Shown here piece after piece: positions 13,369-38,641 of a DNA stretch of 64,000 nucleotides. Each line of letters begins with the position of its first letter. Within the stretch, counting starts at the first letter, position 1. This DNA comes from Deltaproteobacteria bacterium Ga0077539 (GTDB lineage: Bacteria > Myxococcota_A > Polyangia > Polyangiales > Ga0077539): positions 1 to 64,000 of the forward strand of contig LNEO01000131.1 in the NCBI GenBank assembly GCA_001465015.1. The letters are read 5' to 3'. The position numbers were made by a program, and so were the translations under genes. Under the pieces are notes generated by a model. The model was not told the DNA's origin. It searched no databases and worked only from the letters and a program-made list of their open reading frames with translations.

Positions 13369-14132
13369 CGGCGACGCTGGATGCGCGCGGGGTCGCGCGA
13401 GTGCTCACCGTCGATCGCAGCGCCTCGCGCAACGCGCTCGACAGCAGGACCATCGACGCGCTCGTCGCGCACGCACGCGCCGTCGGCAAAGACCGACACG
13501 CGCGAGCGATCGTGCTCGCGGCCAGTCCCCCGACCTTCGTGGCTGGCGGCGACCTGCACGAGTTCGGCGCCCTCCGCGGAGAGAGCGGCGGACGCACCGT
13601 CGCACGCAAAGGCAAAGCGCTCGTCGCCGCGCTTCGGGCCGCGAAGTTGCCGCTCGTCGCGGCGATCGACGGACCGGCGTTCGGCGGCGGGTGCGAGCTC
13701 GCGGCCGCGTGCGACCTGCGTTTTGCCCACAAGGACTCCAGCTTTCACTGGGTGCAAAACAAGCTCGCGGTGACCACTGGTTGGGGAGCAACGGCGCGGC
13801 TCGTCGCCCTCGTGGGACCGTCCATCGCCGCTCAGTGGCTCCTCGGCGCTGAGTCCGTGACGGCGAGCGCCGCGCTCGAGGCCCGGTTCGTCAACCAGCT
13901 CTGTCGCGAGGGCACCGCGCTCGAAGCAGCGCTCACGTGGACCGAGCGCCTCGCGTCGATCGATCCGGCGGTCACACGAGCGCAGCTCGCCCTCGTCCGC
14001 GCCGAGATCGATCAGGCGACCGCGCGAGCGGCCGCCAGTGAGCTCCGCGCGTTCAGCGCGAGCTGGGCGCTGCCAGCGCACGAGGCCGCAGTGGCGCGCT
14101 TCACCGCCGGACGCGCGCGCCGCGGGCGCTGA
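13365..14132 (+). CDS. Enoyl-CoA hydratase/isomerase family protein
   Basis: A 255-residue crotonase-fold protein. The oxyanion-hole motifs are present: SPPTFVAGGDLHEFGAL, and IDGPAFGGGCELAAACDLRF followed by FHWVQNKLAVTTGWG. The position that usually holds the catalytic Glu near the second motif cannot be assigned by eye, so hydratase, isomerase or decarboxylase activity is open. The start ATG overlaps the rimK stop (ATGA at 13365-13368), so translation is coupled to rimK, an unusual pairing. The 3' end overlaps the convergent minus-strand gene by 32 bases. It probably acts on a cytoplasmic acyl-CoA. Confidence 0.88.
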   Translation: MTATLDARGVARVLTVDRSASRNALDSRTIDALVAHARAVGKDRHARAIVLAASPPTFVAGGDLHEFGALRGESGGRTVARKGKALVAALRAAKLPLVAAIDGPAFGGGCELAAACDLRFAHKDSSFHWVQNKLAVTTGWGATARLVALVGPSIAAQWLLGAESVTASAALEARFVNQLCREGTALEAALTWTERLASIDPAVTRAQLALVRAEIDQATARAAASELRAFSASWALPAHEAAVARFTAGRARRGR

Positions 14133-16230
14133 GGACCAACTCGCTCGAGCGCGAATCCTGCACGACCGCGCGCCACTCGTCGGCGCTGAGGAATCCCGGT
14201 CGAAACGGGCGCGCCGCGAACACTTCGTCCTCGCACGCGTCGCTGTCGCACAACGCCAGCGAGCTCCGAACGGCGCCGCGCTCGGCGGCGTGCACCCAAC
14301 GCGAGGCCGCGTCGCGAAACAGATCAGCGCTCATCCGACGCGCCAGCGGCTCGAGCGCGTCGCGGAGCGAAGCATCTTCGCGGACGTGCCGCACGATCGC
14401 GTGCATCGAGGAGCCCTCGACCTCTGCGTCGTCGCCCTGCGTGAGCGCGATGACGACGGCGCACGCAGCGTCGCAGAGCAACATGGGCGTCGGAGCGAGC
14501 CGCATCGCCACGCGCGCGCTGACAAACTGCGCAGCGCACTCGGCGGCGAGCCACCGTCGCGCGTCGGAGCTGAGCGCGCGATCGCGCTCGGGATCCACGA
14601 GCACGAGCGACGGAGTGCTCGGAGGCGACGACCAGAGCACCCCCAAACCGTCGAACGGAGCGACGACCGGCAACGGCGCCGAGAGGACGCGGCACGCGTC
14701 AGTGAGCGCGGCAGCAAAGGTGTCGGGCTGCTCCGAGGACGCGACCGAATGAACGTCGTAGTCCGCGGGCGAGCGCGCGTACGTCGCGCGTAGCGCCGTG
14801 GCCAGCGTCGCGATCCACTCGGCGACTTCTGTTTGTTCGAGCGGGTCTCGCAGCGCCGAGAGAGCGTCGCGCACAGCGGCGAGTCGGTCGGCGTCCGACG
14901 ACGAAGCCGCTTCGGTCGTCGCGGCTCGGTCCAGCTCCGCGTCCGATGGCGACGGCCAGGTTGGATCGCTGGTCGCTGGTCGTTCGTCGAGCGAAGCGTT
15001 GGCAGCGACGAGACCTGTCGGAAAGCTCGGCTTCGAGAAGAGCTTCACACTCTCTTCGCGTTCGGGCGACGCCTGCTCTTGCGGGGGCAGCGCCTGAGAA
15101 TCCTGCGCTTCGACCGGCGGGGGGCCGCTCGCCTCCGCGGCCGCTTGCGCCTCGGCGCGCTCGATCGCCTCGTCGATCTCTTGCGGCGGTGGAAACACCG
15201 ACGGCGTCGAACGAACGTGCTCAGGCTCCTTCGTCGGCACCGGCGAATCAGGCCACAGCGCGATGCCGAGCCGCTGACGAAGCGCCCAGTACTGTTCGCT
15301 CATCGCGAAGGTGACGATGTCCGAGAGCGCTCCTTCTGGCGCGCTCTCGATGAGCATGAGAGCGCTCTTCGCGCTCGCGACGTCGCCCGACAAGAGCAGC
15401 CCTGCGCGCAGCGAGGTTCGCTCGGCGCCGGTGAGCCAGCGGCCGATGTCGACCTTCGCGCCGCGCTCGAGAAACAGCGCCACGACGCGCTCGAGGCGCG
15501 CGATCGCAGCGGGCTCCATGAGCTTGCGGAGCTGATCGCCGACCTTCGCGATCGAGGCGTCGACCGCGAGCTGGGGCCGACCCGCGCGCAACGCCGCAGC
15601 GAACAGCGACGTCAGCTCGGGGAGCGAGTCTTTGTAGAGCACGCGGATGTACTGCGCCGGGCGATACCGCGTCATGTGGTGCCCCGCGAGAAACGCGAGC
15701 TCTTCGAGCGTGCGTCCCGAGGTCACCTTCGCGCCGGCGAGCGAGGCGATCGGATCTGTGGGCAGCGCCTCGATCGCGCTGTCGCGTTCGGACACCACGA
15801 ACGCCAGCGGCATCGGCGCGTCGAGCGCGAACGCCGCGGACCCGAGCGCACGAACGACGGCGAGCGACGAGCGCGACGGGTGCGCCGCGTCTCGCGCGTG
15901 CAGCCCGACCTTCGCGAGCGCGAGCGAGCGCACCGAGCGCACCGCGCCGAGCACGCACTCGAACACCTTGGTGACGAAGAGATCGTCGTCGGGGTGAGCG
16001 AGGAGTTTGAACCAGGCCTCTTCGTCGATCGGCGCGTCTGCGTGCCTCGGGCGCGGCGGGCGATACTCGTCCGAGAAGCTCCTTGCGTCCGACGGCGCGC
16101 GCTCGCCGAGGAGAAAGCGCCCCGCGTGAGCGGCGCAGTACGCGGCGTCATCGCGCCCCGTGGCGCGCAGCGACGCGACGAGCTCAGAGAGCTCGCGGGC
16201 CGCTGCTTCTTGCGAGGGAGGTGCACCCAT
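14101..16230 (-). CDS. Paralogue of the GltI C-terminal domain, two diverged copies
   Basis: A 709-residue protein, last in the Glt-like cluster. Residues about 25-340 align with the last 315 residues of the upstream GltI. Matching pairs, written GltI then this protein, include AKHMSYYRPEHYVRTLF with AGHHMTRYRPAQYIRVLY, FLEQGGQVNIKKWF with FLERGAKVDIGRWL, and ISEPYFRLRESLGI with MSEQYWALRQRLGI. After a Pro/Gln/Ser-rich linker (residues about 340-430), the C-terminal part looks like a second, weaker copy: RWVHAAERGAVRSSLALCDSD matches the CRAGFLLCGDLD segment. No TPR array, signal peptide or membrane segment is visible. The start ATG 16230 is 59 bases after the gltI stop, so it is probably the same transcript. 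Function is unknown; a partner or regulator of GltI is inference. Confidence 0.75.
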   Translation of the reverse strand: MGAPPSQEAAARELSELVASLRATGRDDAAYCAAHAGRFLLGERAPSDARSFSDEYRPPRPRHADAPIDEEAWFKLLAHPDDDLFVTKVFECVLGAVRSVRSLALAKVGLHARDAAHPSRSSLAVVRALGSAAFALDAPMPLAFVVSERDSAIEALPTDPIASLAGAKVTSGRTLEELAFLAGHHMTRYRPAQYIRVLYKDSLPELTSLFAAALRAGRPQLAVDASIAKVGDQLRKLMEPAAIARLERVVALFLERGAKVDIGRWLTGAERTSLRAGLLLSGDVASAKSALMLIESAPEGALSDIVTFAMSEQYWALRQRLGIALWPDSPVPTKEPEHVRSTPSVFPPPQEIDEAIERAEAQAAAEASGPPPVEAQDSQALPPQEQASPEREESVKLFSKPSFPTGLVAANASLDERPATSDPTWPSPSDAELDRAATTEAASSSDADRLAAVRDALSALRDPLEQTEVAEWIATLATALRATYARSPADYDVHSVASSEQPDTFAAALTDACRVLSAPLPVVAPFDGLGVLWSSPPSTPSLVLVDPERDRALSSDARRWLAAECAAQFVSARVAMRLAPTPMLLCDAACAVVIALTQGDDAEVEGSSMHAIVRHVREDASLRDALEPLARRMSADLFRDAASRWVHAAERGAVRSSLALCDSDACEDEVFAARPFRPGFLSADEWRAVVQDSRSSELVLSARGARVRR

Positions 16231-16289
16231 GCGTGTCTTGCCGCGTCGAGGGCGAGCGAGCCGCGCTGCAGACGCAGCGCACCGCTCGC

Positions 16290-19200
16290 TCAGTACGCGG
16301 CAGCCGCCTGGAAGGTGATCCCGAGCGACTCACGAAGCCGGAAGTACGGCTCGGAGATCGAGAACAGGATCGTGTCCTTGAGCTTGTCTGTCGGCGAGAC
16401 GTCGCCGGGCAGGCCGGGCTCCATGGCGATCATCTTCTTGGTCACGTCGAGGTCGCCGCACAGCAAGAAGCCAGCGCGACAAGCGGTCAGCTCGACCGAC
16501 TGGAACCACTTCTTGATGTTCACCTGTCCGCCTTGCTCGAGGAAGATCTTGACCACCTTGCGAAGGCCCTCGAGGTTGACCGGATCTTGCGACATCTGCT
16601 GCGCGAGGGTCTGAACAGTCGACATCACCTCTGCAGGCACGTCGAAGTCGCCCTTCACGAGCTTGATCGCCGCGAGCAAGAGCATGGTGAGCTCGGTCAC
16701 CGTGGGGAAGAGCGTCCTCACGTAGTGCTCGGGGCGGTAGTAGCTCATGTGCTTGGCCGCGATGAACTGCAGGTCCACCGGCTGCATGCCTTGCAAGAGC
16801 GATCCTCCTGAGACCGACGCCCACGGGTCCGACGGGACGTACGCGAGCCCGCCTGGCTGCTGCGGGCGCAGGAAGATCGCCGGCATCTGCGGGAGATTGA
16901 GGGCTGCGGCAGAGAGTCCGAGCGCGCGAACGAGCGCGACCGAGCTCGTCTGCGGGTTCTGCTGATCGGCCGCGGTGAAGCCGAACTGAGCCACCGGGCG
17001 CACCTTCACGCGGCGAAGCGCGGGGAGGATGCACGCGAACATCTTTCCGACGAACGGATCCTCGTCCTGGTGGAACAGGTCTTTGATCCATCGCTCTTCG
17101 TCGAGGCGCGACTGCGGCGCGAGCGGACGACGCGGCTTGTACTGCTCGTAGAACGCGCGCGCGTCCTGCGGCGCGTTGTCGCGCAGAAGGAAGCACATCG
17201 TGTTCGCGACGCACCACGCCTTGTCGTACTGGCGCGCGGCGTAGTGAAGGTCGTACACGGCCTTCAGCGCGGCGCTGTTGTTGATCTCGCGGCGCAGCAT
17301 GCCCATGTAGGACTCGATCGCCTTCGCGCTGTCGCCGGTCACGGTGTACAGCTCGGCGAGGATGCGCTGCTCCTGCTCGTCCTCGGGCTTGAGCTTGGAC
17401 GCCGACTCGAACGCCGTGATGGCCTCGGACTTCTTCTCGAGGCGATCGCGATAGATCAGGCCGAGCGCGTGCCAGAGCGAGAACTCGAGGTCGCGGTTTC
17501 CCTTGCCGTTGATGCGGTGGAGCATCTTTCGGTACGAGCGCTCGAGCTGCTTGAACTCCTTCTTGGCCGTGAGGATCTGGTTGATCTTCTCGAAGGCCTT
17601 GAGGTCCGACGGGTTGAGATCGAGCGCGGCGTTGTACCAGTTGACCGCCTCGTCCGGGTTCTTGATCTCGGTGTTGTAGATCGACGCCACGGTGTACGCG
17701 TACCGCGACTTCTTGGCCGGATCCTTCTCGACCTCGGACATCTTCGTGACCGTCTCGATCACGCGCGACCACTGCTTGGTCTCCTGGTAGAGCGCCAGCA
17801 GCTTCATCAACAAGATGTTGTTCGAGTCGGCCTTGACCTCGAGCGCTTCGTTGAAGCTCTGGATGGCCTTCTGCGGGTTCTTCGCCTTGCTCTGCCACAG
17901 CTCAGCGATGTCGACGAGCATGGTGTAGCGCTCGTCGACGTCGGTGACGTGGTTGTCGAGCACGGCGCGCTTGTAGCCGATGACCTGCTCCCACTGGTTG
18001 TCCCCGGCGTAGGTATCAACCATCGCCTCGAGGGTCGGCCTGTGGTTGGGCACTTCCTCGAGCGCCTTGTCGAGGAAGTTGATCGCGCGACGACGATCAC
18101 CCTGCTCGCGCTTGACGACGCCGATGCGGAAGTAGAGCTCCGCGCGGCCCTCGGGAGCCATGTCGTCTTTGTGGTGAACGACGAGCAAGTGATAGTACTT
18201 GAACGCGTTCTCCCACTCCTTCTTCTCGAAGTGCGCGAGCGCGAGCTCGTTGAGCACCTCGACGTTCGAGCGGTCGAGCCCGTGCGCCGTCGACAACGCC
18301 TTGACGGCGCGATCGAGCTTACCGAGCTTCATCGCGACGCGGCCCATCACGAGCTGCAGCTGCAGTTGCTCCTCGGGCGGACGACGAGCGCTCTTGCGAA
18401 CGAGCACCTCGGCGAGGGGCTCGGCCGCCTCCCACTGCGACGTCTGCGCATAGTGGAACACGAGCGGAAACGCAGCGTCGTCGAGCTCCGGGTCGGCCTT
18501 GATCGCGCTCTCGAAGCACGCGACGGCCTTGTCGCGTTCGTCGAGGTGATCGTTCCAGATGCGGCCGAGCTCGTAGTAGAGCTTGGCCTTCGCGCGCGGC
18601 GCCTCGGTCGCGTTGATCTCGCGCTCGAGGTACTGCGCAGCGTCGTACTGGTCGCCGCGACGCTGGAAGATCTGGCGAATCGCGCCGAGCGACGGCGCGT
18701 GCGCGTCGTTGACGTCGAGCGCCGAGCGATAGAGATCCAGCGCCTGGTTCTCGTCCTGGAGCTGCTCCTCGGCGAGCTTGCCGATTCGATACCGGATATC
18801 GACCTGCTTGACCGGATCGCGCTCGTGGTCCGAGAGCGTTCGAAGCGTCTCGATCGCGCGATCCCACTCGCTGCGCTTCTCGTACACGCGCGCGAGGCCT
18901 TCGAGCGCCGGCAGATACGTGTAGTCGATGTCGAGCGCGTTCTGGAAGCCGTCGATCGCGCGATCCTGGTCGTTGAGCTCGTCGGCCTGGACCTGTCCCA
19001 TCGCCGTAAACAGCGGAACGCGCTCCTTGCGATCGTTCGTCGCGGAGATGTGGCGATCGAGCGCTGACAACAGCTCGGCCCACTTCGACTGGCGACGGTA
19101 GAGCCGCTCGAGGCCGCGATACGCGTGATCGTTGTTGGGGTCGATCTCGACCACCTGCTCGAAGCGCGCGGACGCCTCGGGCAGCTTCACAAACTCCTCT

Positions 19201-22200
19201 TCTTGCATCTCGGCGATGCGCGTGAGCAGCTTGATCTTCTCTCGCTCGACCTGAACGTGCTCGATCTGCGCCTCGAGCGCGCCGAGCAGCTCCGAAGAGC
19301 GCCCGAGCCTCGCGTACAGCCGCTCGAGACCGCGCAGCGCCTGCAGGTTGCTCGCGTCTTGCGCCACCGCCGCCCGCAGCACTTCCACCGCACGCTCAGC
19401 GTCGTTCGCCTTGTCCTCGAGGACGTCCGCGAGCTTCAGCCGAACGACGTTCGCTTGCTCGATGTTGTTCTGCGCCGCGAGCGCCTCGGCCTTGCGGTAG
19501 AGGACGTCGACGAGCGCCGGCCCGTTCGCCCTGCCCTCGTACACCCGCTCGAGCGCGGTGAGCGCCCCGAGGTCGCGAGCGTTGAGGTTGAGCGCCGTCT
19601 TGTAGTGCTCGACCGCCGCGTCCGGCTGATTCAGGTGAAGCTCGAGCACCTCGCCGAGCTCGACGTGAACCTTGCGACGATCCTCTTCGGTACGAGCCAC
19701 CGCCATGCAGCGCTCGAGCAGCTGCGTGAGCTGCGCCCACTGCTGAAGCTTGCGGTAGAGCGCCGTCATCGAGTGCAGCGCGAGCAGGTTGTCCGGCTGC
19801 CGCGCGAGCACTTGCTGGTAGATCGGCAACGCCCACTCGGGCTTGTTGAGGTCCACGCCGTACCACTTGGCCATGTTGAGGCCGATGTGCGTCCAGCGCG
19901 GGTCCGACGCGGCCTTCCACCACTCGTTGGACGTCGCGAGAAGCTCGTTCCACTTCGCGCCCACCGCGGCGAGCCGCTCGAGGAGCGCCACGGTCTCTTT
20001 GTCCGAGACGTCCTCTTCGTACGCGAGCATCGCCGCAGCGAACGCCTGCTCGTTGTCGTTCAGGTTCTGGTCGTACACCTTCGCTGCGCGACGCAAGAGG
20101 TCGACCTTCTCCTTGAGGTCTCCGTCCTCCAGCGCGTCGTGGCGCGCGATGTACATCTCGACCAGCGGCTCCCACCGCCCGTTGTCGCGATGCAGGACCT
20201 CGAGCCGCGCGAAAGCGCGCTCGTGCAGCGTGTCGATCGACTGAATCTGCTCGTACGCCTCGCGCGCGCCGTCGGGCTCGTGGATCTTGTCCTCCCAGAC
20301 CGACGCGATCTCCACGAGGATCGGGATCTTCAGCTCATCGATCGACTGCGCAGCGACGCGGATCTTCAAGACGTCGACGACGTCGCGCCACTCTTCGCTC
20401 GCCGCGTGCAGCTCGAGGAGCTTGGCGATCGCCTCTTCGTCGTTGCTCGAGAGGTCGAGGACGTTGCGCCACGACGTCACCGCGTCGGCGTTCTGCTGAT
20501 AGACGTTCTGGTAGAGCAACGCGAGCTCTGCCCAAATCGCCCGCTGCCGCGCGCCGTCGAGCGTCGCCGCGCCGACCTGGATGTGCTGGTTGAGCGTCGC
20601 AGACAGCTCGTCCCAGTTCGACGTCCGACGAAAGATCTCTTCGAGCGCGACGTACGCAGCGTCGTTGCCCGAATCAATATCGAGCACTCTGCGATACGAC
20701 TCGACCGCGCGCTCGAGGTCGCCGCGCGCCTGCTCGTGCACCGAGGCGATTCGCAGACCAACCTGCGCCTTGCGCTCGTAGTCGTCCGTCGCGACGAGCT
20801 GTCGCTCGAGGGTCTCGACCAGGTCGTCCCACTTGCTCGCGTTCTGGTGCAACGTCGCGAGCACGTCGAGCGCGTCGGGGTCCTCGCCCTTGAGCGCGAG
20901 CACCTCGTTGAGGAGCCGCACCGCGTCCGCCGGACGATTCAGCGGCCCGGCAGCGAGCGCCGCCTGCCGCGTGAAGAAGTCCGCGCGGTCCATGTCGCTC
21001 GAGGCGATCTCTGCCTTCTTCTCGAGGACCTTGTAGAGCTCCTCGCCGTTGCCCGCCGCCGTGTACAGACGGTCCAGCGCCTCGAGCGCTTCGGGGTGCG
21101 ACGCGTCGAGCTGGTCGACGATCACTCGGTAGCGACCGATCGCCTGCTCGGGCTGCGCCAGCTCACCCTCGAGGATCTGCGCGTGACGCAGCGTGAGCTC
21201 GATCTTGAGCGTCGAGTCCTCGACCGCTTGTGACCGACGATCGAGCACCTGCGCCAGGCGCTCGGAGTTGCCCAAGCCGGAGTAGATCACGTCGAGCCGC
21301 TCGAGCGCGTCGGTTTCGAGCGGAGCGACGCTGAGCACGTAGTTGTAGGACGCCTCGGCGTTCTCGACGTCGCGAAGCTCCTCTTCGTACACGCGGCCGA
21401 GACGCTTGCCGACGACGCGCTTGACGTTCTCGTCCGCTGACGCCTCGACGATGTCCGCGTAGCAGCTCGCGACGTCGGTCCACGCGTCCATCGTGCCTGC
21501 GAGACGCTCGGCGTCCGCGAACGATCGCTCGTCCAGCGGCGCCTCGCGCAGGACGCGCATGTGCCAGTTCAGCGCGCCGACACCGTCGCCGAGCTGTCCT
21601 TCGTTGAGGTCCGCGAGCGCGTGCATCGCCGCGGTGCGCTCAGCGGGCTCGGTCACCAACGGGAGGGCCTGCTCGTTGAGCTGCGCGAGCTTCTGCCACT
21701 CGCCCTGACCCTCGTAGATGGGCCGGAGCATCGCGGCGACCTCGGCCTGCTTGGCGCCGCGCGCGAACATCGCCTCGAGCGCCGCCACGGTCGGCGCGTG
21801 CTCGGGCTCGACTTCGAGCACCTCGCGGTACGCGGTGATCGCAGCCTCGATGTCGCCGAGCGGTCCTTCGTTGACCTGCGCCAGCTTGAAGCGAAGCGCG
21901 ACGATCTCCTCCGGCGAGGTGTCGGGGAGCGAGATCGTGACCTTCGTGATGTCCGCGAGCTCTTGCCACTTCTCACCGGCCTCGTAGAGGCGGTCGAGCG
22001 CGCGAGCGGCCTCGCCGTTCTGCGCATCCGCGGCGAGCACCGCCCGATACCGCGCGATCGCGGCGTCCGTGCTCTCGATCTGAACCTCGTAGATCCTGGC
22101 CGTTCGCAGCCCGAGCTCGACCGCCTTCTGCGGCTCACCCGAGAGCTTCGCCAGCTCCGCGTCGTACGCGGCGCCGACCGCGGCCCACCCTTGCGGGTCG

Positions 22201-27479: not shown

Positions 27480-28385
27480 CTACTGCGCGGGCGTCTGCAG
27501 CTCGGTCAGCTTCGCTCGCGCCTGATCCGTGTACTCCGGCGGAACATCGTTGCTTCGCGTCGAGGTAAACCTCGTCAGATAGAGGATCGCCTGCGCGCGA
27601 CCGTCCGGCATCTCTGCGTACGTCATGCCGAGCGAGAAGAGCGCAACGACGAGGCGCTGGTCCTCTTCGATCGCATGGCGGAAGCTCTCGATCGCCTGCG
27701 GCTTCTGGTTCTGCCGGAGCTGCGTGAGGCCCATCACGTTGTACATCTGCCCTCGCTCGGGAGCTCCGGGCGGCGCGATGTTGAGCCCTTCGCGAAGCAC
27801 CTGCAGCGCTTCGTCGTACTTCTGGTGATCGCGGTAGATGCGCGCGAGGCGCACGTACGCGGAGTACGCGCGCGGCGCGATGTTGATGCAGTCGGTGTAC
27901 GCGCGCAGCGCGTCCTGCGGGTTGTCGAGCAGCTCGGCGAGCTGCCCGAGTCGCATCTGCGCCATCCACAGCTTGTTGTTCTTCTGCAGCGCCGTCGTGA
28001 ACGCGGTCTTCGCCTGCTCGAGGTGCGACGCGCCCGTCGCGCTCTCAGCGTTGTCCGGCGCGGTCGCGATCATGTAGTGCGCGTTGCCGAGCTGGTAGTG
28101 ATAGTCCGCGTTGTTCTGGTTGCGTGAGATCGCCCGCGACAGCGCGTCGACCGCGTTCGTCCAGTCCTTCTGCCGGATGTACGTGAGGGCGAGATTGTAG
28201 AGTGGCTGATCGAAGCGTCGGTCCTCCTCCGCGGCGCGCTGAAATTTCTCTCGCGCGTCGGCGTAACGGTTGGCGCGCAAGAGCGCCATCCCCTGGTTGT
28301 TGCTATCCACCGCTTCGCGGTTGTACTCGCCGCACGCGCTCGCACCGATCAGCGCGAGAGCCCACAGCACGCGGACGCCCTTCAT
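27480..28385 (-). CDS. TPR-repeat lipoprotein in Glt-like cluster
   Basis: A 301-residue outer-envelope protein. The signal peptide ends in ALIGASACGEY, with Cys as the lipidation site. The mature protein is about six TPR repeats (FDQPLYNLALTYIRQKDW, YHYQLGNAHYMI, SAYVRLARIYRDHQKYDEAL), a scaffold for protein contacts. AGGAG lies 7 bases before the ATG, and a separate promoter (28450-28479) and the gltG terminator sit upstream, so this gene and gltI may form their own transcript. It occupies the place of gltH in the remembered Myxococcus gene order but does not look like a beta-barrel, so it is either a second GltE-like lipoprotein or a replacement. Confidence 0.8.
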   Translation of the reverse strand: MKGVRVLWALALIGASACGEYNREAVDSNNQGMALLRANRYADAREKFQRAAEEDRRFDQPLYNLALTYIRQKDWTNAVDALSRAISRNQNNADYHYQLGNAHYMIATAPDNAESATGASHLEQAKTAFTTALQKNNKLWMAQMRLGQLAELLDNPQDALRAYTDCINIAPRAYSAYVRLARIYRDHQKYDEALQVLREGLNIAPPGAPERGQMYNVMGLTQLRQNQKPQAIESFRHAIEEDQRLVVALFSLGMTYAEMPDGRAQAILYLTRFTSTRSNDVPPEYTDQARAKLTELQTPAQ

Positions 28386-28594: not shown

Positions 28595-30820
28595 TCACTC
28601 GGGGCGCTGCAGGTTGAACGGGTAGTTCACCGTCACGACGCCTCCGCCCTCAGGGGACGGAAACTGCCAGCGGCGAACCGCGTTCGCGATGCACGTCGAG
28701 ACCGAGGGAACCGCCACGTTGCTCTCCTGGACGGTCGAGCCCATCACGGTGCCAGTGCCGCCGATGATGAAGCGAATCACCACGCGGCCTTCGAGCGTCG
28801 GGTTCTGCGCCAGTCCCTGCTCGTGGCAGTGGGCGACCTGACCGAGGTTACGGAGCACGACGCGACGGATCGCTTCGGGCGACAGAAGACCCGTCACCTG
28901 CGGAGGAGCCGCGCGGACGGTCGGACCGCGATTGCCGCGGCCGCGGAGCCCAGAGCCCGCGCCAGAGCCGTAGCCCTGGCCGGTGCCCGTTCCCGAGCCG
29001 TGACCCATGGTGCCGTAGTTGCCGAGGCCGATCGTGCCTTCGCCCGTTCCGCCGCCGCCCCAGCCGGTGCCGGTAGCGCCGAGGCCGCCGAAGCCGAACG
29101 CGTCGCCGATGGCGTCGCCGGTCATGTTTCCGTTGGCGTTGACGTTGTCGAGACCCGACTCCGTCAGGCCACCGAACGGAGAGACGATGCCCGAAGCGCC
29201 GCCCGCCGCGCCGCCACCGGGAGCTCCGAGGGCCGCGAAGATACCGCGCTGCTGAATCGCGTCACGCGCAGCCTGCCGAGACATGTGCGGGGGCTCGCCG
29301 TTGTTGCGGATCGCGTAGCGAGCCGAGCGCGAAGGCGAGTCGCGCTTTCCCATCTTGCCTTCGGGGCCGGCGTGACGAGTGCCCTGACCGCCCTCTTGCT
29401 CGTTGTTGTTGTTGTCTTGCGGCGGAGGGGTCTCCGGCTGACGCTCTTGCTGGCGCTGGATGAACGCGCGCAGATCGTTGAGCCGATCCTCGTCGTTGCC
29501 CTGCGAGAGCAGGCCGCCGTCATCCGAGATCGCGAGGCGCATGCCGAGGATGAACCCGAAGATCAACACGAACGAAGCCGCGCCTGCACCGATCATCACT
29601 GGATCGCGCTTGCGCGCGCCGACGATCTTGCGGCCAGGAGCGACCACCTTCGCGATCACCGTCAGTCCGCCCGCTTCCATCTTGTAGCGGCCGTTCGGAC
29701 GAACGTCGATCTCGTAGCCACCACCGGGAGCAGCGCGCACCTGACCCGCGTCGACCAGCTCCTTCAGCGTCTTCTTGACGCCGTCGAGCTCGACCTCGCC
29801 CGTCGCGCCGGGCAAGAACACGAAGCGCGTTCCTCCGCCGGAGTTCTGGACGATCGTGATCTCGGACTGGTTGCCCATCATCTCGGGGCTCGCCACGAAG
29901 CGCGCAGTGTCGCCGCGCGTCTTGGTCTCCTTCGAGTCGAGCCCGATGCCGATGCCCGTTCCGATGAACGCCAGGGCCACGCCGACCATGCCGACCATGT
30001 ACCCGCGGTTGATCGCCGCGCGTGCAAGGTCAGCGGCCGTCGACGTGTCGTGCGGCTGAAAGTGCGGCTGAGCGCCGGCCATCGTGGCGCCAGCGATCAT
30101 CACCAACGCGCCCAGGCCGAGGCCCGCGCCCATCGCGATTCCCGCGGTGCCCTTCTTCGGACGCTCGCTCGCGAGCACGAAGTTCTTGGACCCATCGAGG
30201 TGCGCGACGTGAAGAATCGAGCTCTTCCAGAGGATCGAAACCTCGACCGCCTGAGAGCCCACTTCCTCCACATCGTGCGGGTTGATGTCCCCGCGCTTGA
30301 TGAGCTGGAAGATCTCTTCGCCGCCTGCGTGGCCATGGCCGGCGTCATGTCCGCCGTGTCCGTGCGACGAAGTCGCAGGAGCTCCGAACGGAGCCGCGAG
30401 CGGCGCCGCAAACGGAGCCGCGATCGCCGCAGCGGGAGGAGGCACAGAGATCGCTGGAGCCGCGACCGGCGCGGCAACCGGCGCTGCCGCCGGCTGAATC
30501 GACGCCGGATCCACAGCCTCGCCGATGGAGATCACGAGCCGCGTGTTGCCGATGCGAATCTCTTCGCCGCCGGCAAGCGCGCACTTGTTGACCTGTGAGC
30601 CGTTGACGAAAGTGCCCGACCCGAGGTCGATGAGCTGCACTTCGTCGGGCTTGGCCTCGATGACAGCGTGCATGCGAGACACGCTCTCGTCGTCGAGCCG
30701 GAGGTGGCTCTTTTGATCGCGACCGATCTTGATCACGCTCTGCGCGATCGTCTCGGTTCGGATCAGGTTGTCTCCCTGGTAGATCTGGAAGGTGATGGGA
30801 ACGACCAGCTTCTGCGTCAT
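28595..30820 (-). CDS. gltG: GltG-like FHA/TonB-like envelope protein
   Basis: A 741-residue protein of the inner membrane. Residues about 5-100 are an FHA phosphothreonine-binding domain (VIKIGRDQKSHLRLDDESVS then RMHAV, and FVNGSQVN). A Pro/Ala-rich and His-rich linker (HGHGGHDAGHGH) follows, then a small domain around VEVSILWKSSILHVAHL. Hydrophobic segments follow at about 225-250, 275-295 and 395-415 (VMIGAGAASFVLIFGFILGM). A long Gly/Asn/Pro-rich periplasmic linker leads to the C-terminal AgmX/PglI-type TonB-like domain: LRNLGQVAHCHEQGL, GRVVIRFIIGGTGTV, STCIANAVRRWQFP and VNYPFNLQRPE, with its conserved Cys pair. In Myxococcus GltG (PglI) such a protein links the cytoplasmic platform to the outer-membrane complex. 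An FHA domain at the cytoplasmic end suggests control by Ser/Thr kinases. Confidence 0.87.
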   Translation of the reverse strand: MTQKLVVPITFQIYQGDNLIRTETIAQSVIKIGRDQKSHLRLDDESVSRMHAVIEAKPDEVQLIDLGSGTFVNGSQVNKCALAGGEEIRIGNTRLVISIGEAVDPASIQPAAAPVAAPVAAPAISVPPPAAAIAAPFAAPLAAPFGAPATSSHGHGGHDAGHGHAGGEEIFQLIKRGDINPHDVEEVGSQAVEVSILWKSSILHVAHLDGSKNFVLASERPKKGTAGIAMGAGLGLGALVMIAGATMAGAQPHFQPHDTSTAADLARAAINRGYMVGMVGVALAFIGTGIGIGLDSKETKTRGDTARFVASPEMMGNQSEITIVQNSGGGTRFVFLPGATGEVELDGVKKTLKELVDAGQVRAAPGGGYEIDVRPNGRYKMEAGGLTVIAKVVAPGRKIVGARKRDPVMIGAGAASFVLIFGFILGMRLAISDDGGLLSQGNDEDRLNDLRAFIQRQQERQPETPPPQDNNNNEQEGGQGTRHAGPEGKMGKRDSPSRSARYAIRNNGEPPHMSRQAARDAIQQRGIFAALGAPGGGAAGGASGIVSPFGGLTESGLDNVNANGNMTGDAIGDAFGFGGLGATGTGWGGGGTGEGTIGLGNYGTMGHGSGTGTGQGYGSGAGSGLRGRGNRGPTVRAAPPQVTGLLSPEAIRRVVLRNLGQVAHCHEQGLAQNPTLEGRVVIRFIIGGTGTVMGSTVQESNVAVPSVSTCIANAVRRWQFPSPEGGGVVTVNYPFNLQRPE

Positions 30821-30869
30821 TGTCGTACCGTCCGGGGCTTTTTAGGCGCCCTCAGTCCTTTCCGGTGCG

Positions 30870-31256: not shown

Positions 31257-31286
31257 CGGGAGACCTCCGTTTTCGACGTCACTACA

Positions 31287-31316
31287 AAGTTACTGGCCAC
31301 GACCGACCTGAGTCAA
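31287..31316 (-). promoter_or_regulatory. Weak candidate promoter before the small GltF-like gene
   Basis: TTGACT (31311-31316) matches the -35 consensus at five of six positions, but TAACTT (31287-31292), 18 bases on, matches the -10 at only three. It lies in the 72-base gap between the GltE-like gene and the small gene. Confidence 0.25.
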
Positions 31317-31328
31317 CCGGCGTTTCGC

Positions 31329-32780
31329 TCAACCGCCACCGCCGCCGGTCGCCGCAGCGCCCGCGTCGGCTCCGCCCGAAGCCGGCGCAGCACCCGCGTC
31401 GGCCGCGGGAGTTCCAGTCCCAGCGGCGTTGTTGGCCGCGTTCATGGCCGCAGCCGCTTCGAGCGCCGTAATCGCCTGGCGCATGTTGTTGATGTGGCGT
31501 GTCGTACGAGACAGCTCGTTCGCGTAGCGCCCTGGATTGCCGCTCGTGTTCGCCTTCTGCTGAAACTGCTCGAACAATCCGATCGCGCGACGCAGATCGT
31601 CTGGCTGGTTGCCCATGTAGCTCATGTTCAAGAGCGCCAGGTTGTAGAAGGCGTCCGGGCGATTGCCGTCCAGCGTCCGCGCGCGCTCGTACTCGGCCTG
31701 CGCAGGCGCCGTCTGGCCGAGGCCGCGAAGCGCGACGCCGAGCCCGATGTGCGCGTCGTAGTCGTTGGGGCGAAGCTCGACCGCGCGAGCAAACGCACCG
31801 CGAGCCTCTTCGTACCCTCGGAAGTTGAGGTTGATCGTCCCGTAGTTGACGAAGGCCTCGAACAAGTTCGGGTTGAGCGTCGAGGCGCGGCGGAAGTTCT
31901 CGAGCGCGCGAATGATCTGCCCGATCTTGATGTTGACCAGACCCCACGTGTTGTAGACGTCCGCCACGTACGAGCGGATCTCCGCGGGAATCTCGCTCGC
32001 GTTCGACGTCGCCACCTGAATGGCCTGCGAGCACACGATGCCCGCGAGAAACAACCGCTGCGAACGAGGGTCGTCGCCAGCGTCCTGCAGGTACACCAGC
32101 GCGAGCTGGTTGAGCGCAGGAAGGTGGCGGTCGTCACGCGCGAGCGCCTGACGAATGTAGTTAACCGCTTGCTGCCGATCGCCTGGATCGCTGCCGACCC
32201 CCGGTCGATTGCGCTCGCGGAGGATCGCCGCGGCGTTGGTGTACGCCTCGACGCAGTTCGCGTCGTCGGTGATCGCCCGCTGAAACGTGCTGAGCGCTGG
32301 CTCGGTCTGCCCCGCGCGCGCTTGGATCACTCCGAGCTGCGTCTGCGCGCGGCAGTACTTGTTGCCGCGCGCCGCGCGGATCGACCGCTCGAGCGCCTCG
32401 CGCACCCGATCACGCATGCTGCAGCGCTCGAACGCCATCGCGCGGTTGAACCACGCTTCGGGAAACGCCCCGTTCGGCTGCGCGTTGGCAGCAGTCTCGA
32501 ACATGCCTGCGACTTCGTTGCAGGCACCCTCGTTCCAGTCGCCGCGGCCGTTGTTGGCCTCGTCGTGCTGGCGAAACGCGGCGGTCCCGCGCTCGAAGTG
32601 TTGGTTTGCCGTGGCGCTCACGGCCTGACCGCTCGCGTTGGTGATGATCTGGCCGCCCGAGCCGCGGGCCGCGTTGGCCGCGGTGACCGTCCCACCGGAC
32701 GCGCCGCCGCCACCGCCGCCGCACGCGACCAACATCAGGCCCACACCGACCGAGAGAACCTTGGAGCTCTTGAAGTTCAT
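31329..32780 (-). CDS. gltE: TPR-repeat lipoprotein, GltE/AglT-like
   Basis: A 483-residue lipoprotein. The signal peptide ends in GLMLVACGGGG, so the Cys is lipidated and followed by a Gly-rich linker. The mature part has about eight TPR-type repeats (PEAWFNRAMAFERC, LPALNQLALVYLQDAG, FVNYGTINLNFRGYEEARG, AHIGLGVALRGLG, AFYNLALLNMSYMG). It ends in an Ala/Gly-rich tail. The length, lipobox, TPR architecture and place between the GltD-like and GltF-like genes match AglT/GltE of Myxococcus, an outer-membrane lipoprotein on the periplasmic side of the gliding complex. It follows the GltD-like gene by 46 bases, so it is on the same transcript. A weak AAGGGA is seen upstream of the ATG. Confidence 0.8.
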   Translation of the reverse strand: MNFKSSKVLSVGVGLMLVACGGGGGGASGGTVTAANAARGSGGQIITNASGQAVSATANQHFERGTAAFRQHDEANNGRGDWNEGACNEVAGMFETAANAQPNGAFPEAWFNRAMAFERCSMRDRVREALERSIRAARGNKYCRAQTQLGVIQARAGQTEPALSTFQRAITDDANCVEAYTNAAAILRERNRPGVGSDPGDRQQAVNYIRQALARDDRHLPALNQLALVYLQDAGDDPRSQRLFLAGIVCSQAIQVATSNASEIPAEIRSYVADVYNTWGLVNIKIGQIIRALENFRRASTLNPNLFEAFVNYGTINLNFRGYEEARGAFARAVELRPNDYDAHIGLGVALRGLGQTAPAQAEYERARTLDGNRPDAFYNLALLNMSYMGNQPDDLRRAIGLFEQFQQKANTSGNPGRYANELSRTTRHINNMRQAITALEAAAAMNAANNAAGTGTPAADAGAAPASGGADAGAAATGGGGG

Positions 32781-32826
32781 CGTCCGAACATCCCTTGGGT
32801 TGTGTTCTTCCGTTGATTAGATGGGC

Positions 32827-35800
32827 TCAGCGCCCACCGCCCGCGGCCGCACCGCCGGTTGCGGGGGCCTGCGTATCCGGCGCGCCGCTCTCGCCCGACT
32901 CGTCCTCGGCCTGCATCGTGAACACCACGCGGGCGTTCGAGGCGCGAGAGAAGAGCAGGTTCGGCTGCGTGCGGATCTCCTCGGTGAGGGGGAAGTTGAC
33001 GCGGTCGATCTCGTTGAGGTTGCGCTCGCAGAGCTGCGACCACTCGTTGAACCAACGCACCGACGTAGCGCGCGTGATGCACGCCTGGTAGCCGCGCTTG
33101 GCGAGGTCGACGAGCGGCTGGGTGCGCTCGTCGATCATCGCGCCGTACTCCGCGCGAAGCGTTTCGTACGGCTCGCCCTGGCGCTGCCAATCGGGCGGCA
33201 TGGGCGCCTGACGAATGATGCGCGCGAACTGATAGAACATGTCCGCGAGGCGCGCGGCTGCCGCGATCTCCCAGTTGGGGACGTGCATCGCGATCACCTG
33301 CTGGAACTGCTGCGTCGCCTCGGACTCGAGGTTCGTGCGCTGCTGCGTGATGTACGGCGTCAGCGTCGTGCGCGTCCACGTGTCGAACGCTCCGCGGGTG
33401 TTGCCTCCGCGGAAGTTCGGCGGACGGCGCGACATGAAGCGCTGATACACGAAGTCGGCGAGCCAGAAGCGAGCTTCGGCCGCAGAGTCCTTCGTGCGTT
33501 CGATCGCCTCGGCGATCGCTGCGTCGCCCGCGCTCGTGAGCTGCTCGCGGATGCGGGTCTCACCAGCGGTGCGCCCATCGCCTGCGCGAGAGCCGTCGGC
33601 GTTGGTGGCAACCTCACCCCACGCCGCCACGGCGGCGCGGAAGTAGAGCTGCGCGTTGGTGTTGTCCTCGATCTTGAGGTAGCCGCGGCCGAGCGCCACG
33701 TTGCCCTGGATCTGCTGATCGAGCGTTCCCTGGCGGGCGTAGCGGTTGACGAACTGCGTGTAGTGCCGGATGACGTCCCGCCACGCGCCGCGAGAGCGGT
33801 CGCGCCGGTCGTCCGCCGACAGCGTCTGATCGCGCGCGAAGCGCTCGGCGCGGTCCTGGTAGATCTGCCCGATCGAGAACACGACGGACGCGGCCTGACG
33901 GCGGAAGCGCTCTTCGGTTCCGAAGTACCGAGCGAACTTCTGCGCGTTGTCGAGCGCCTTCTGCTCTTCGCCGAGGCCGATGCGGAAGATCGTCGCCTGA
34001 CGGAGAGCGTCTGCTGCGTGCTGCAGCGCGTCCGAGTCCGCCTGCGTCGCGACGGCGCGGTTGGCGTAGACGTACTCAGCGTAGCGTTCGTAGTAGTCCG
34101 CGGCGCGACCGAACACCTGAATGGCGTGGTAGTTGCCGCCGAGGCGGTAGAGCGCGCGCTGCGCCCAGGGCGAGTTGCGCGGGAGGAAGATCGACACGAG
34201 CGAGTCGCGAACGCGCATCGCGCGGCCGAGCATGTTCGCAGAGTCGAACATGATCGCGGCGTTGTAGAGCATCTCGTCTGCGCGCGCGTCCTCACGCGCG
34301 CGGCACTCGGGGTGATCGCGGACGATCACGACGTACGCGCGACCCGCCTCTTCGAAGCGGCGCGAGGTGCCGAGAGACTCAGCCTTCTTGCGAAGGATCT
34401 GGCAGCCGAGGAGGTCCATACGGCCGCAGAACTCTTCGTGCTGCGCGCGAGCAGAGGCGCTGCAGAAGCGCTCCTTGATCGCGGGCAGGTCGCGCTCCAT
34501 CGAGTCGAAGCAAGCGGGGCGCGACGGCGTCCAGCGCTGACCCATGACCACGAGCGTGTCGAGGTAGAGGTCCGCGGCGATCTCGCGAAGGTTCTCGGGG
34601 TCCGCCGCCTCGCGCGACGGATCGTCGTTCGCGGGCAGCGCGATGTCGCGGAACATCGTCGAGGCCTCTTCGAACTTGTTCGCCGCGTAGTAGAGGTACG
34701 CGCGGCGGTACTTGATCGTCAGCACGATCTGGCGCGGATCGTCCTCGCCCTCGGGAACCGGCGGGCGGTTGGCGCCCTGCGCCCGCATCGCGGCGCTCGC
34801 GTAGCACACGTAGCGCGTAAACGCGCCGAACATGCCCGTCTCCTGCCGGTTGAAGTCACGCGGCGCAAAGCGCGTCACGTTCTCTTCTGGCGCCGGCTGG
34901 CGCGCGCCCGCGCCGGTGCGCGCCGTCGCACGCGCCGGCCTCTGGCGCGACTGCGTGGCGAGCTCGCGCGTGAACTGGTCGTTGTAGCAGAGCACCGCCT
35001 TGTACGCGGCGTCCTCGGTGTACTCACCAGTCGGGTTCATCTCGACGACGCGGTCGTACGCAGGGCCACAATCCGCGAAGTTGCCCTGATCGCGGAGGAT
35101 GTCCGCGGCGTAGTACGCGATGCGATAGCGCGTCGGCCAGTCGCGTCGGTCGTAGTCGGGGAAGGTCACCTGATCGAGGTCCGTGAACTTCTCGAGGATC
35201 AGGTTGTAGAGCTGCGCGGCGCGAGCCATCGTCTGCGGGTCGCGCGTTCCGCGGGTCTGCACCTGGCCTTCGGCCGAGCGGCCGATGGCCTCGAGGTGCC
35301 AGTGCGAGGCGACGTCGTAGGTGACGCGCGCCGTCGCGTCGCGGCAGGAGTTCTTCGCGTCTTGCGAGCGGCGCGAGGTGGCGGCGCGGTACTGGTCGTA
35401 CACGTCCACCAGGCGCGTGAGCTCGCGCATCATGTTGTCGCGCTGGTTCATCGCGACGTAGGCCTTCGCGACTTGTCCCTGCCAGTGGCAGAACCGGTCG
35501 TTGTCCGCGCGCTGCGACTGCAGCTCGTGAAACACCGCGATGGAGTTCGGCCACTGACCGTTGTCCTGGTAGAGCTCGCCGAGCTTCTCGAGCATGGCGA
35601 ACGCGCCGTTCTCGTCCGCTGCGTAGCGGCGGAAGGTGTTGAGCGCCTGCCCTGTGTTGAGCGGACGCGCCGAGCCGTAGACCGCGCCGTACGCGGACAC
35701 GAGCTCGTTGCGCGCCGACACGAGCAGCGGCTGAACGCTGCGGTTGTCAGGCTGCGAGCGGCCGAAGTCGATGACGTTGAAGAACTGCTGGAGCGACTGC

Positions 35801-36813
35801 TCGAAGCGCTGTCGATTGAACTCGACCCACGCCATCTTGTACATCGCGTACCCGCGGACGTTGTTCTCCGGCGTGTTGACCGCGATCACCTGCGTGTAGA
35901 ACTGGCCCGCGCTGTCCATGTCGCCCTGCTCGAAGAAGAACTCGGCGAACGACAGGTACGCGTTGGGCACGTACTGCGACTGCGGGAAGCGTTGGATCAA
36001 GAGCAGGTAGATCTGCCTCGCGCGATCCATGTTTCGCCCTTCTTGATAGGCGAAGGCGAGGTAGAAGAGCACCGCGTCCATGCGGTTGTAGTTGGCGTGG
36101 TCCGCGACGAGCGTCTCGAACACGCGCGTCAGCTGCTCGCGCTGCTGACGAGCCTCCGTGAAGAACTGCTGCTGCTGGCGCTGCAGCGCCTGCACCTGCT
36201 GCTGGTTGCGCGCCTGGGTCGCGCGGAAGATCTCTTCATTGAGGTCCTGCCCACGCCCGTTGAGCGTGCTCGAGAGCTCCTGAAGGTTCTCAGCGAGGCG
36301 CATCAGCGTGTTCGGTCGATTGCCGTCGTTGCGGTTCATCGAGCGAGCGAGCTGCGCGGTGAGCTGAATTTCGCGGCGCAGAAGGTCCTCAGCCTGACGC
36401 TGAAGGCCCTGCCTGCGGAGCATCGTGCGCGAGTCGAGCTGGAAGAGGTCGTTTTGCCCCTTCGTCTTCGCGCCCTTCGCCTTGCCGCGGTCGCTGAGGT
36501 CCGCGCGCGCTGCCGCGGGCGGAGCCGTCGAGCCACGCGCGCCCATGCGCCCGGAGGCGTTGGGGCATGCCATCGCAGCGTTGCGCCGATCATCCGGCAC
36601 ACAGACGTTTGCGGGAACCGCGCTGACGCCTGGCGTCGGCGTCGCCGCCGCATCGCTCGCCGCTGCTCCGGCATCTCCGCTCGTGCTCGCTGCGGCGTTT
36701 CCGCTCGGCCGCGCGCCACCCGTGTTGCGCTGCTGCGCGACTGCGAGGGGCGCCATCGTGACGATCAGCGCCACGAGCAGCCACGGTGCCTTGGTCCACC
36801 AAGCCCTGCTCAT
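32827..36813 (-). CDS. Large periplasmic TPR protein, GltD/AgmU-like
   Basis: A 1,328-residue exported protein. The start ATG 36813 is fixed by a strong AGGAGGA placed 5-6 bases upstream; the in-frame ATG at 36867 lacks one. The signal peptide is APWLLVALIVTMAPLAVAQQ. A low-complexity Ala/Ser/Gly segment follows (to about residue 100), then a Gln-rich coiled coil (about 160-230), then a long series of TPR-like repeats (for example VLFYLAFAYQEGRNMDRARQ, YVPNAYLSFAEFFFEQGDMD, YAMYKMAWVEFNRQRFEQSL). The C-terminus is Gly/Ala-rich. Size, export, TPR content and place before gltE match AgmU/GltD, which interacts with AglZ, AgmK and AgmX in Myxococcus. A GltD identity is from remembered gene order. 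Confidence 0.77.
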   Translation of the reverse strand: MSRAWWTKAPWLLVALIVTMAPLAVAQQRNTGGARPSGNAAASTSGDAGAAASDAAATPTPGVSAVPANVCVPDDRRNAAMACPNASGRMGARGSTAPPAAARADLSDRGKAKGAKTKGQNDLFQLDSRTMLRRQGLQRQAEDLLRREIQLTAQLARSMNRNDGNRPNTLMRLAENLQELSSTLNGRGQDLNEEIFRATQARNQQQVQALQRQQQQFFTEARQQREQLTRVFETLVADHANYNRMDAVLFYLAFAYQEGRNMDRARQIYLLLIQRFPQSQYVPNAYLSFAEFFFEQGDMDSAGQFYTQVIAVNTPENNVRGYAMYKMAWVEFNRQRFEQSLQQFFNVIDFGRSQPDNRSVQPLLVSARNELVSAYGAVYGSARPLNTGQALNTFRRYAADENGAFAMLEKLGELYQDNGQWPNSIAVFHELQSQRADNDRFCHWQGQVAKAYVAMNQRDNMMRELTRLVDVYDQYRAATSRRSQDAKNSCRDATARVTYDVASHWHLEAIGRSAEGQVQTRGTRDPQTMARAAQLYNLILEKFTDLDQVTFPDYDRRDWPTRYRIAYYAADILRDQGNFADCGPAYDRVVEMNPTGEYTEDAAYKAVLCYNDQFTRELATQSRQRPARATARTGAGARQPAPEENVTRFAPRDFNRQETGMFGAFTRYVCYASAAMRAQGANRPPVPEGEDDPRQIVLTIKYRRAYLYYAANKFEEASTMFRDIALPANDDPSREAADPENLREIAADLYLDTLVVMGQRWTPSRPACFDSMERDLPAIKERFCSASARAQHEEFCGRMDLLGCQILRKKAESLGTSRRFEEAGRAYVVIVRDHPECRAREDARADEMLYNAAIMFDSANMLGRAMRVRDSLVSIFLPRNSPWAQRALYRLGGNYHAIQVFGRAADYYERYAEYVYANRAVATQADSDALQHAADALRQATIFRIGLGEEQKALDNAQKFARYFGTEERFRRQAASVVFSIGQIYQDRAERFARDQTLSADDRRDRSRGAWRDVIRHYTQFVNRYARQGTLDQQIQGNVALGRGYLKIEDNTNAQLYFRAAVAAWGEVATNADGSRAGDGRTAGETRIREQLTSAGDAAIAEAIERTKDSAAEARFWLADFVYQRFMSRRPPNFRGGNTRGAFDTWTRTTLTPYITQQRTNLESEATQQFQQVIAMHVPNWEIAAAARLADMFYQFARIIRQAPMPPDWQRQGEPYETLRAEYGAMIDERTQPLVDLAKRGYQACITRATSVRWFNEWSQLCERNLNEIDRVNFPLTEEIRTQPNLLFSRASNARVVFTMQAEDESGESGAPDTQAPATGGAAAGGGR

Positions 36814-36997
36814 CGTCTTCCTCCTGAGACCGGCGCCGAGCGACGATCGCTCGACCCGGGAGTGCACTTCGATCGAATCGCGTTGAATCCACCCCGGCGC
36901 GCGTCTCGATCAGCGACCTCGCTGAAGCTCGCGGCGCGCGCCGGCGAAACCATTCTCGTTTGCAAGCAAAGCTGCGGCGGACGCCGCGGTGGGACGC

Positions 36998-38641
36998 TCA
37001 ACGTCCGCAGCGCGACGCGACCTGCTGGCGGTAGAAGCCGAGCTCGTCGCGCCAGTATTCGCCGTTGAACGGCCAGAGATAGTGCTCTTCGTCCGCGGTC
37101 ACGCGCGCGGCGGCGGCGTTGATCGCGCGGCTCTGCTCGCCGGCGATCTGCGAAGAGAGGTTGCCGCGGCGCGCGTTCAAGATTTCGATCAAGATGGCGG
37201 TCGACTGGTTCTGCAGGTCCTGCAGCTCGTCGAGCAAGCGCTGGTAGCGACCACGGGCGAGGTCTCCGGCTTGATCGGTCGCGAAGCTCTTGGCCACCGA
37301 GATGTCCTGCAACACGCGGGCGCCGAGCGTGCTGTTGCGGAAGGCCGCCGGCATCCCCTGCAACCGTCGCTCCTCGGACTCGAGGACCGCGACGTACTCG
37401 ATGTTGCGGAGCAGCGTACGGTCGCTGAGCGCGCTCGACACGATCGGGCGCAGGTTGTTCGGCAGCGACGCGTTGCCCGAGCGCACGTCCTTCAAGAAGC
37501 GGAAGAACGCGTTGTTGTCCGAGTACTGCTGGAGGTAGCGCTGCAGCTGCGGACGCAGGTCCGAGTAGCGCGCGTTGAACTGCGAGATGGTCGTCTCGGC
37601 GTCGTCGTACTGGCAGTTCGAGAAGAAGATCACGCTCTTCAACACCAGCGACTCTGGGTAGAACGCGTTGCTGAAGTACGGGCTGTTCAGCGTGTGGATG
37701 TTGCCGAGCGCGCGGGCGTAGTCCTGCTGGAGGTAGTAAGCCCAGCTCTCTTCGAAGAGCGAGTCGAGCCAGTATTCGCTGTCGACGTCGACTCGGTTCC
37801 ACGCTTCGACGGCGCTGTCATAGTGGCGCGTCGAGTAGTAGAGGCGCGCGCGCTCGAGCCACGCGAGGTCGTTCATACGACCGGTGTCTTCGACGCCGCG
37901 GACGCCTTCGGTGAGGGCGTCTTGAATTCGTGTGAAGGCCTCGACCGCCGGCTGCGCGCGGTGGTTGCGCACGTGCGAGATGCCCATGAAGAACTGGGCC
38001 TGCACGTACCAGGTCGAGGTGCGCTGCACCTGGCCGAAGAGGTTGACGGCCTCCTCGAAGTTGCCGTCGTTGTACTTCGCGCGACCCAGCAAATAGAGCA
38101 GCTGGTTGTAGAGGTCTCGCGACTCGTTGTTGTTGAACTGCGCGAGCTGATCCGGCGAGTAGCGACCCACGCGGCGGATGATGTCCGCCGGCTCGGGGAG
38201 CTGCGAGGCGAGCTGCGCGAGCCACTGGAGCGTCGAGCCGAAGTAGAGGTGCCTGCCGCCCTGGTGATCGACGATCTCGTCGAAGACCGCGAGGCCCGAC
38301 TGGTAGAAGCGCAAGTGATAGAGGCACTTGCCGAGGTGAAACTGCGCCTTCTGCACCTGCGCAGCGGCGTCGCCGGTCTCGCCCTCGACCACGCGCTGAA
38401 ACTGCACGCAGGACTCTTGATAGCGCTCTTGCTGATAGAGGCGCAGCGCGTTCGCCATCGCTTCGGACGGCGGTCCATCCTGGGGCGCTGCGTTCTCTTG
38501 ACCCTCGGTTGCGAAGGTCATGTCTGCGCCACCCTGCCCGTTCTGCGGGCCTTGCTGCGCACTCGCGGTGCTCGACACCACCGTGCCTAGCAGCGCACCC
38601 ATCATCACGAGCACTCCCCCAAGTCGGGACCGACGACGCAT
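36998..38641 (-). CDS. Periplasmic TPR protein, GltC-like
   Basis: A 547-residue protein. The signal peptide (LGGVLVMMGALLGTVVSSTASAQQ) is followed by a short Gly/Gln-rich linker, then TPR-type repeats over residues about 55-330 (ANALRLYQQERYQESCVQF, YLLGRAKYNDGNFEEAVNLF, YYSTRHYDSAVEAWNRVD, SWAYYLQQDYARALGNI). The remaining 200 residues are helical with a terminal Trp/Tyr-rich segment (HYLWPFNGEYWRDELGFY). GAGGAG precedes the ATG at good spacing. As the first gene of the cluster it has a promoter about 260 bases upstream. In Myxococcus gltC lies in a different cluster from gltD-J, as I recall. The GltC assignment is the least certain in this cluster. Confidence 0.72.
   Translation of the reverse strand: MRRRSRLGGVLVMMGALLGTVVSSTASAQQGPQNGQGGADMTFATEGQENAAPQDGPPSEAMANALRLYQQERYQESCVQFQRVVEGETGDAAAQVQKAQFHLGKCLYHLRFYQSGLAVFDEIVDHQGGRHLYFGSTLQWLAQLASQLPEPADIIRRVGRYSPDQLAQFNNNESRDLYNQLLYLLGRAKYNDGNFEEAVNLFGQVQRTSTWYVQAQFFMGISHVRNHRAQPAVEAFTRIQDALTEGVRGVEDTGRMNDLAWLERARLYYSTRHYDSAVEAWNRVDVDSEYWLDSLFEESWAYYLQQDYARALGNIHTLNSPYFSNAFYPESLVLKSVIFFSNCQYDDAETTISQFNARYSDLRPQLQRYLQQYSDNNAFFRFLKDVRSGNASLPNNLRPIVSSALSDRTLLRNIEYVAVLESEERRLQGMPAAFRNSTLGARVLQDISVAKSFATDQAGDLARGRYQRLLDELQDLQNQSTAILIEILNARRGNLSSQIAGEQSRAINAAAARVTADEEHYLWPFNGEYWRDELGFYRQQVASRCGR

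Follow-up and report, generated by a model that had tools for sequence, protein, structure and literature searches.

Does the 24-kb run of TPR-protein genes in Deltaproteobacteria bacterium Ga0077539 encode a gliding machine, an Nfs-like exporter, or a third, undescribed paralogue? These three options were left side by side by a first-pass annotation of the window, the 64-kb stretch analysed here, which is part of a 117-kb contig (C131) in a draft genome of 9.7 Mb that is 91% complete. The Agl-Glt machine of Myxococcus xanthus is laid out as G1 (gltD-J), G2 (gltK-B-A-C) and M1 (aglRQS). In this study, we found that the cluster in the window probably encodes the envelope core of an Agl-Glt gliding machine, being an orthologue of the Glt and not of the Nfs system of Myxococcus, and that it represents a form without gltH that occurs widely in the phylum.

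The locus comprises eight genes arranged head to tail from 38641 to 14101, with intergenic gaps of 46-209 bp and a strong third-position GC bias in all eight reading frames. As shown in Table 1, the order is GltC-D-E-F-G-[TPR lipoprotein]-I, followed by a gene for a 709-aa protein. The minus-strand series of the first-pass annotation was located exactly as claimed; only the 709-aa product had been left unnamed there. Signal peptides or lipoboxes were seen on GltC, GltD, GltE, GltF and the TPR lipoprotein, and the GltI-like and 709-aa proteins were without a signal peptide. The GltD reading frame opens at 36867 (32827-36867, 1,346 aa), and with the ATG at 36813 as the start, a signal peptide is clearly seen. 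The order recurs in 31 of the 32 GltI loci read outside the Myxococcia (the window counted; 14 families) and is thus not a product of chance.

Table 1. Features of the gene cluster in the window and the evidence for each assignment
Feature	Position	Strand	Basis
GltC-like periplasmic TPR protein, 547 aa, signal peptide	36998..38641	-	NF033756 gliding_GltC E=1e-85; Glt clade in trees
GltD-like large periplasmic TPR protein, 1,328 aa	32827..36813	-	position; identity to Archangium GltD; iterative profile; trees
GltE-like TPR lipoprotein, 483 aa, lipobox LVAC	31329..32780	-	NF033758 gliding_GltE E=2e-18; position
GltF (CglF)-like small exported protein, 88 aa	30990..31256	-	NF033764 gliding_CglF E=5e-14
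GltG-like inner-membrane protein, 741 aa: N-terminal FHA, TM, C-terminal myxo_SS_tail/TonB-like	28595..30820	-	NF033760 gliding_GltG E=1e-95; PF00498; NF033768
TPR lipoprotein, 301 aa, in the gltH slot	27480..28385	-	Pfam TPRs; lipobox at Cys18; slot position
GltI-like cytoplasmic giant TPR protein, 3,677 aa	16290..27323	-	identity to M. xanthus GltI; C-terminal domain alignment
GltI C-terminal domain, likely M48-like with catalytic motif lost	16293..17222	-	hhalign to M48
709-aa protein, GltI C-terminal domain x2	14101..16230	-	38% and 22% identity to the GltI C-terminal domain

The reference loci were those of M. xanthus AM003 (L095, genome G237) and Archangium lansinium (L113, genome G238), retrieved with a PDB AgmX fragment as the query. 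The reference DNA read covered Archangium G1, M. xanthus gltG-H-I-J (the glt cluster being contig C144), G2 including gltC, the nfs clusters and additional clusters of paralogues. Archangium carries gltD, E, F, G, H, a 645-aa gene and gltI, and M. xanthus agrees over the part covered by its contig, in keeping with the gltD-E-F-G-(H)-I order that the annotation had given. The window resembles M. xanthus in having homologues of GltC, D, E, F, G and I in the same order, but it differs in several respects. GltC heads the same cluster in the window, a TPR lipoprotein stands between gltG and gltI in place of both gltH and the gene for the 645-aa protein, an extra gene with the GltI C-terminal domain follows downstream, and gltJ, which comes after gltI in Archangium L113, is unlinked. 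Among the records retrieved, L093 and L126 bear the title Comamonas sp. KCTC 72670; since a Myxococcus-type gltJ (98% over the query) is present in L093, the name of that record looks wrong.

Family identity was examined with NCBIfam equivalog models, which are built on Myxococcus. Four of these models matched the window, including the GltC model for the gene that the annotation had called GltC-like, and none of the four proteins reached its equivalog cut-off: GltC scored 289 bits (cut-off 450), GltE 66 (225), GltF (CglF) 52 (90) and GltG 321 (650). The reference controls were in line with expectation: M. xanthus GltG scored 1,094 bits and Archangium GltE 755, and Archangium GltF matched the same CglF model (NF033764). 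M. xanthus NfsG reached 337 bits on the GltG model, so that the window's GltG is no higher than NfsG, and M. xanthus NfsC reached 209 bits on the GltC model. Because the window misses the cut-offs and the Nfs controls score in this way, the models give family membership and cannot split Glt from Nfs. Identity was 22% over 855 aa between window and Archangium GltD, and 26% over about 3,000 aa between window and M. xanthus GltI. A scan for TM segments predicted three in GltG of the window's genus and one in that of M. xanthus. The solved structures in the PDB included nothing usefully related to GltC or to the GltI C-terminal domain. Since the four tested proteins lie below the equivalog cut-offs, the cluster is best described as a Glt-clade variant and not as the exact Myxococcus machine, and an equivalog label would be inappropriate.

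The GltG score would also suit an Nfs-type machine, in which AglRQS drives a complex around the sporulating cell and compacts the surface polysaccharide coat. The Nfs system (nfsA-H) has paralogous GltC, D, E, F and G parts in one run and the same kind of motor partner, and the single C-D-E-F-G run of the window is closer to nfs than to the split glt of M. xanthus. However, the concatenated GltC+GltD+GltG tree placed the window and its relatives with Myxococcus and Archangium Glt (support 97/98), and the support was 99 under a mixture model with the long-branch rows removed. Each of the single-gene trees of GltC, GltD and GltG also preferred Glt, at 91-93. A forced union with Nfs was rejected on the concatenation (AU p=0.002), and a Glt+Nfs clade leaving out the window group was weakly rejected (p=0.026); the single-gene rejections of Nfs were marginal (AU p 0.04-0.08), with long branches in the tree. 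Nfs formed a separate clade in the trees. It moreover is without GltI, J and K (PMC3858216), whereas GltI is present in the window's cluster; CglE/GltH, which belongs to the nfs cluster as NfsH, was not found here. These results make an Nfs-type machine very unlikely. The annotation had regarded a position of the FHA/TonB-like protein outside Glt/Nfs as evidence against its reading; GltG, like GltC and GltD, instead fell in the Glt clade.

A third Glt-like paralogue does exist, and it forms a clade of its own (100/100), made up of the clusters on contig C94 of this genome, contig C76 of M. xanthus (G237), Archangium L166 and L168 of genome G178. The C94 cluster of the window's genome (G000; L023:9756-20000, L024:1-4907) holds GltC/D/E/G-type genes together with exported proteins. 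The annotation had proposed a search for a second copy of the cluster; C94 carries a second GltC/D/E/G set of this genome, in a clade other than that of the window's cluster. The third cluster is like the window in having GltC, D, E and G homologues together, but no GltI was seen in it, and an mglBA-like pair adjoins its counterparts in Myxococcus and Archangium. Of the three options, the Glt assignment is favoured over Nfs and over a third paralogue, the actual third paralogue of this genome being the separate C94 cluster.

The slot expected for gltH does hold a second TPR lipoprotein, as the annotation had noted, and GltH (CglE) gave no match at E<=0.01 in the window's draft genome; in the controls, GltH/CglE had two matches each in M. 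xanthus and Archangium. GltH/CglE was not found in genomes G236, G160, G103, G077 and G218 either, and in G178 and G150 the match obtained was weak and distant from the cluster. In the comparison of 31 related genomes, the same lipoprotein occupied the slot between gltG and gltI in 31 of the 32 loci outside the Myxococcia. It was present in all of the first twelve complete loci (window, G236, G160, G067, G193, G188, G150, G178, G126, G103, G077 and G218) and in 19 of another 20 loci, which came from other families and classes. In the sole exception, G208 (L310), gltI had neither gltG nor the slot gene as neighbours in the stretch read. Because the lipoprotein fills 31 of the 32 slots and CglE was not found in six genomes, the gltH-less slot is a widespread arrangement, at least in the present sampling, and Myxococcus is the exception. 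The comparison suggests that in most of the phylum the machine contains an additional lipoprotein at the point occupied by the barrel protein GltH in Myxococcus.

A profile search of four Myxococcia genomes found no standalone orthologue of the slot protein; the best matches there were <=112 bits, with the top ones inside longer TPR proteins, and the window scored 412. An origin of the slot gene as a GltE duplicate was considered: the slot and GltE profiles align over 217 columns at 99.6%, a figure to be read against the general tendency of TPR families to align (GltC and GltD at 95-97%). Archangium, and also M. xanthus, has a 645-aa TPR-like protein between gltH and gltI (L163:2961-4895 in Archangium) with no confident Pfam match. 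The possibility that it is the slot lipoprotein was ruled out, as the slot profile does not match it. The lipobox cysteine (Cys18) was invariant in ten aligned slot-protein orthologues. Since the lipobox would place the protein in the outer membrane, it is a natural candidate for the linking job of GltH.

The last 310 aa of GltI had no Pfam match above cut-off. A profile of this C-terminal domain matched 147 of the 284 sampled genomes of the phylum, 59 of them from the window's own order and class. The domain is also found at the end of another TPR protein, about 1,800 aa long, and in short proteins; in the window's genome, contig C172 (L352) encodes such a protein of 1,778 aa, and relatives have many short carriers. 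Alignment with hhalign matched the domain to M48 peptidases with a probability of 94% and a score of 57. In the controls the probability was <=2.5%, reversed and column-shuffled profiles scored <=18, and unrelated families scored <=23. None of the 102 domain copies has the HExxH zinc motif, and where ExxAD aligns, the sequence is mostly of the ELTAxRAG kind. Foldseek with two AF2 models of the domain (pLDDT 78 and 80) gave no match at E<=0.001, with the expected sheet/core region the least confident. The profile alignments suggest that the GltI C-terminal domain is likely a catalytically dead M48 metallopeptidase.

The 709-aa protein downstream carries this domain twice, with 38% identity over 306 aa in its N half (E=9e-72) and 22% over 241 aa in its C half (E=7e-5). 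Among the loci read, the gene was seen only in the window's genus; it was present in G236 and absent after gltI in the other loci compared with them. A domain that is without its M48 catalytic residues, together with GltJ and GltH genes that are not in the cluster, might point to a cluster that is decaying or non-functional. However, all of the reading frames are intact, and the seven core proteins are 91-96% identical to their G236 counterparts, in identical order. The motif loss is also ancient, because it is common to all 102 domain copies. Decay is therefore extremely improbable as an explanation of this locus.

We investigated whether the remaining parts of a Glt machine are present elsewhere in the genome. 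In agreement with the annotation, neither motor genes nor a gltJ gene occurred in the 64-kb window. An AglRQS-type motor, whose absence from the genome the annotation would have counted against its reading, was found on contig C76 of the window's genome (L028:4911-9503). There, two divergent operons stand back to back, and each consists of one gene of TolQ/MotA type and two of TolR type. The minus operon (one ExbB, two ExbD) corresponds to M. xanthus C111 and the plus operon to M. xanthus C323. The AglR-type protein shares 52% identity with its M. xanthus counterpart and groups with it (support 89/90). The first ExbD of the minus operon keeps Asp28 of AglQ, which is needed for proton conductance, and D28N abolishes function (PMC3858216). 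The divergent pair is kept in five other genomes of the order that were examined (G236, G160, G178, G150 and G103). The search for gltJ gave a mixed answer: two proteins with the GltJ architecture (zinc-ribbon, GYF, TM and tail) are encoded on C291 and C120, but they scored 57 and 41 against a cut-off of 450. Two fragments of M. xanthus AgmX (GltJ) are available in the PDB, and the C291 protein matches the solved AgmX domains. A tandem pair of GltA/GltB-type barrels lies on C123, one above and one below the TIGR04565 cut-off of 60 (89.8 and 47.4); in G178, G150 and G103, such a pair is within about 10 kb of the glt cluster. The motor, the GltA/B-type barrels and the GltJ architecture in this genome are further points of likeness to M. 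xanthus Agl-Glt. Overall, the set of machine parts is nearly complete, with one typical Myxococcus component, GltH, missing and replaced.

These parts bear on the question of whether a Glt orthologue need be a gliding machine. The cluster may have another job, such as moving surface polysaccharide or prey-contact structures, with gliding confined to the Myxococcus line that has GltH and GltK. The missing GltH and the occurrence of the cluster in families far from known gliders would fit this, and the core, whose genes are also found in bacteria without known gliding, has been argued to predate gliding (Luciano et al., PMC3169522). However, G178, which fits Sandaracinus amylolyticus, described as gliding (PMC5010890), has the same cluster with no gltH in the slot, and the genome studied here holds the motor, GltI, GltJ-like proteins and GltA/B-type barrels. 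We consider such another job unlikely, and a gliding machine remains the preferred reading.

The analysis shows the parts, their order, their orthology and that a motor is present; by analogy to M. xanthus, we infer how these parts would form a complex, pass force and support gliding in this organism. In M. xanthus, AglR contacts both GltG and NfsG, and the motor is powered by the proton gradient (PMC3858216). The AglRQS-type proton motor of C76 may thus engage GltG, with its FHA domain in the cytoplasm and its tail in the periplasm, and a GltJ-like partner, and GltI would serve as a huge cytoplasmic TPR scaffold. Soluble GltC of M. xanthus is bound by GltA and GltB, two barrels of the outer membrane that are assisted by CglC (PMC4488436). 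Motion would pass through periplasmic GltC, GltD, GltE and GltF to the GltA/GltB-type barrels of C123. At the outer membrane, the chain is probably anchored or assembled by the slot TPR lipoprotein, in the place that Myxococcus gives to GltH (CglE). A broader proposal, which we hold tentatively and at somewhat less than even chance, is that the lipoprotein cluster without gltH represents the ancestral, functional form of the gliding core in the phylum. Myxococcus would then be derived, having swapped the lipoprotein for GltH and a second TPR-like protein, and GltI would end in a dead M48 binding module.

Nearly all knowledge of this motor comes from M. xanthus. If the gltH region of Myxococcus is the exception, models that require GltH as the outer-membrane link would need revising, and the slot lipoprotein would become the part to test. 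For the C-terminus of GltI, so far unexplained, the M48 likeness offers an idea that can be tested. The cluster, AglRQS with Asp28, the GltA/B-type pair and the GltJ architecture may together serve as a checklist for predicting gliding in uncultured relatives.
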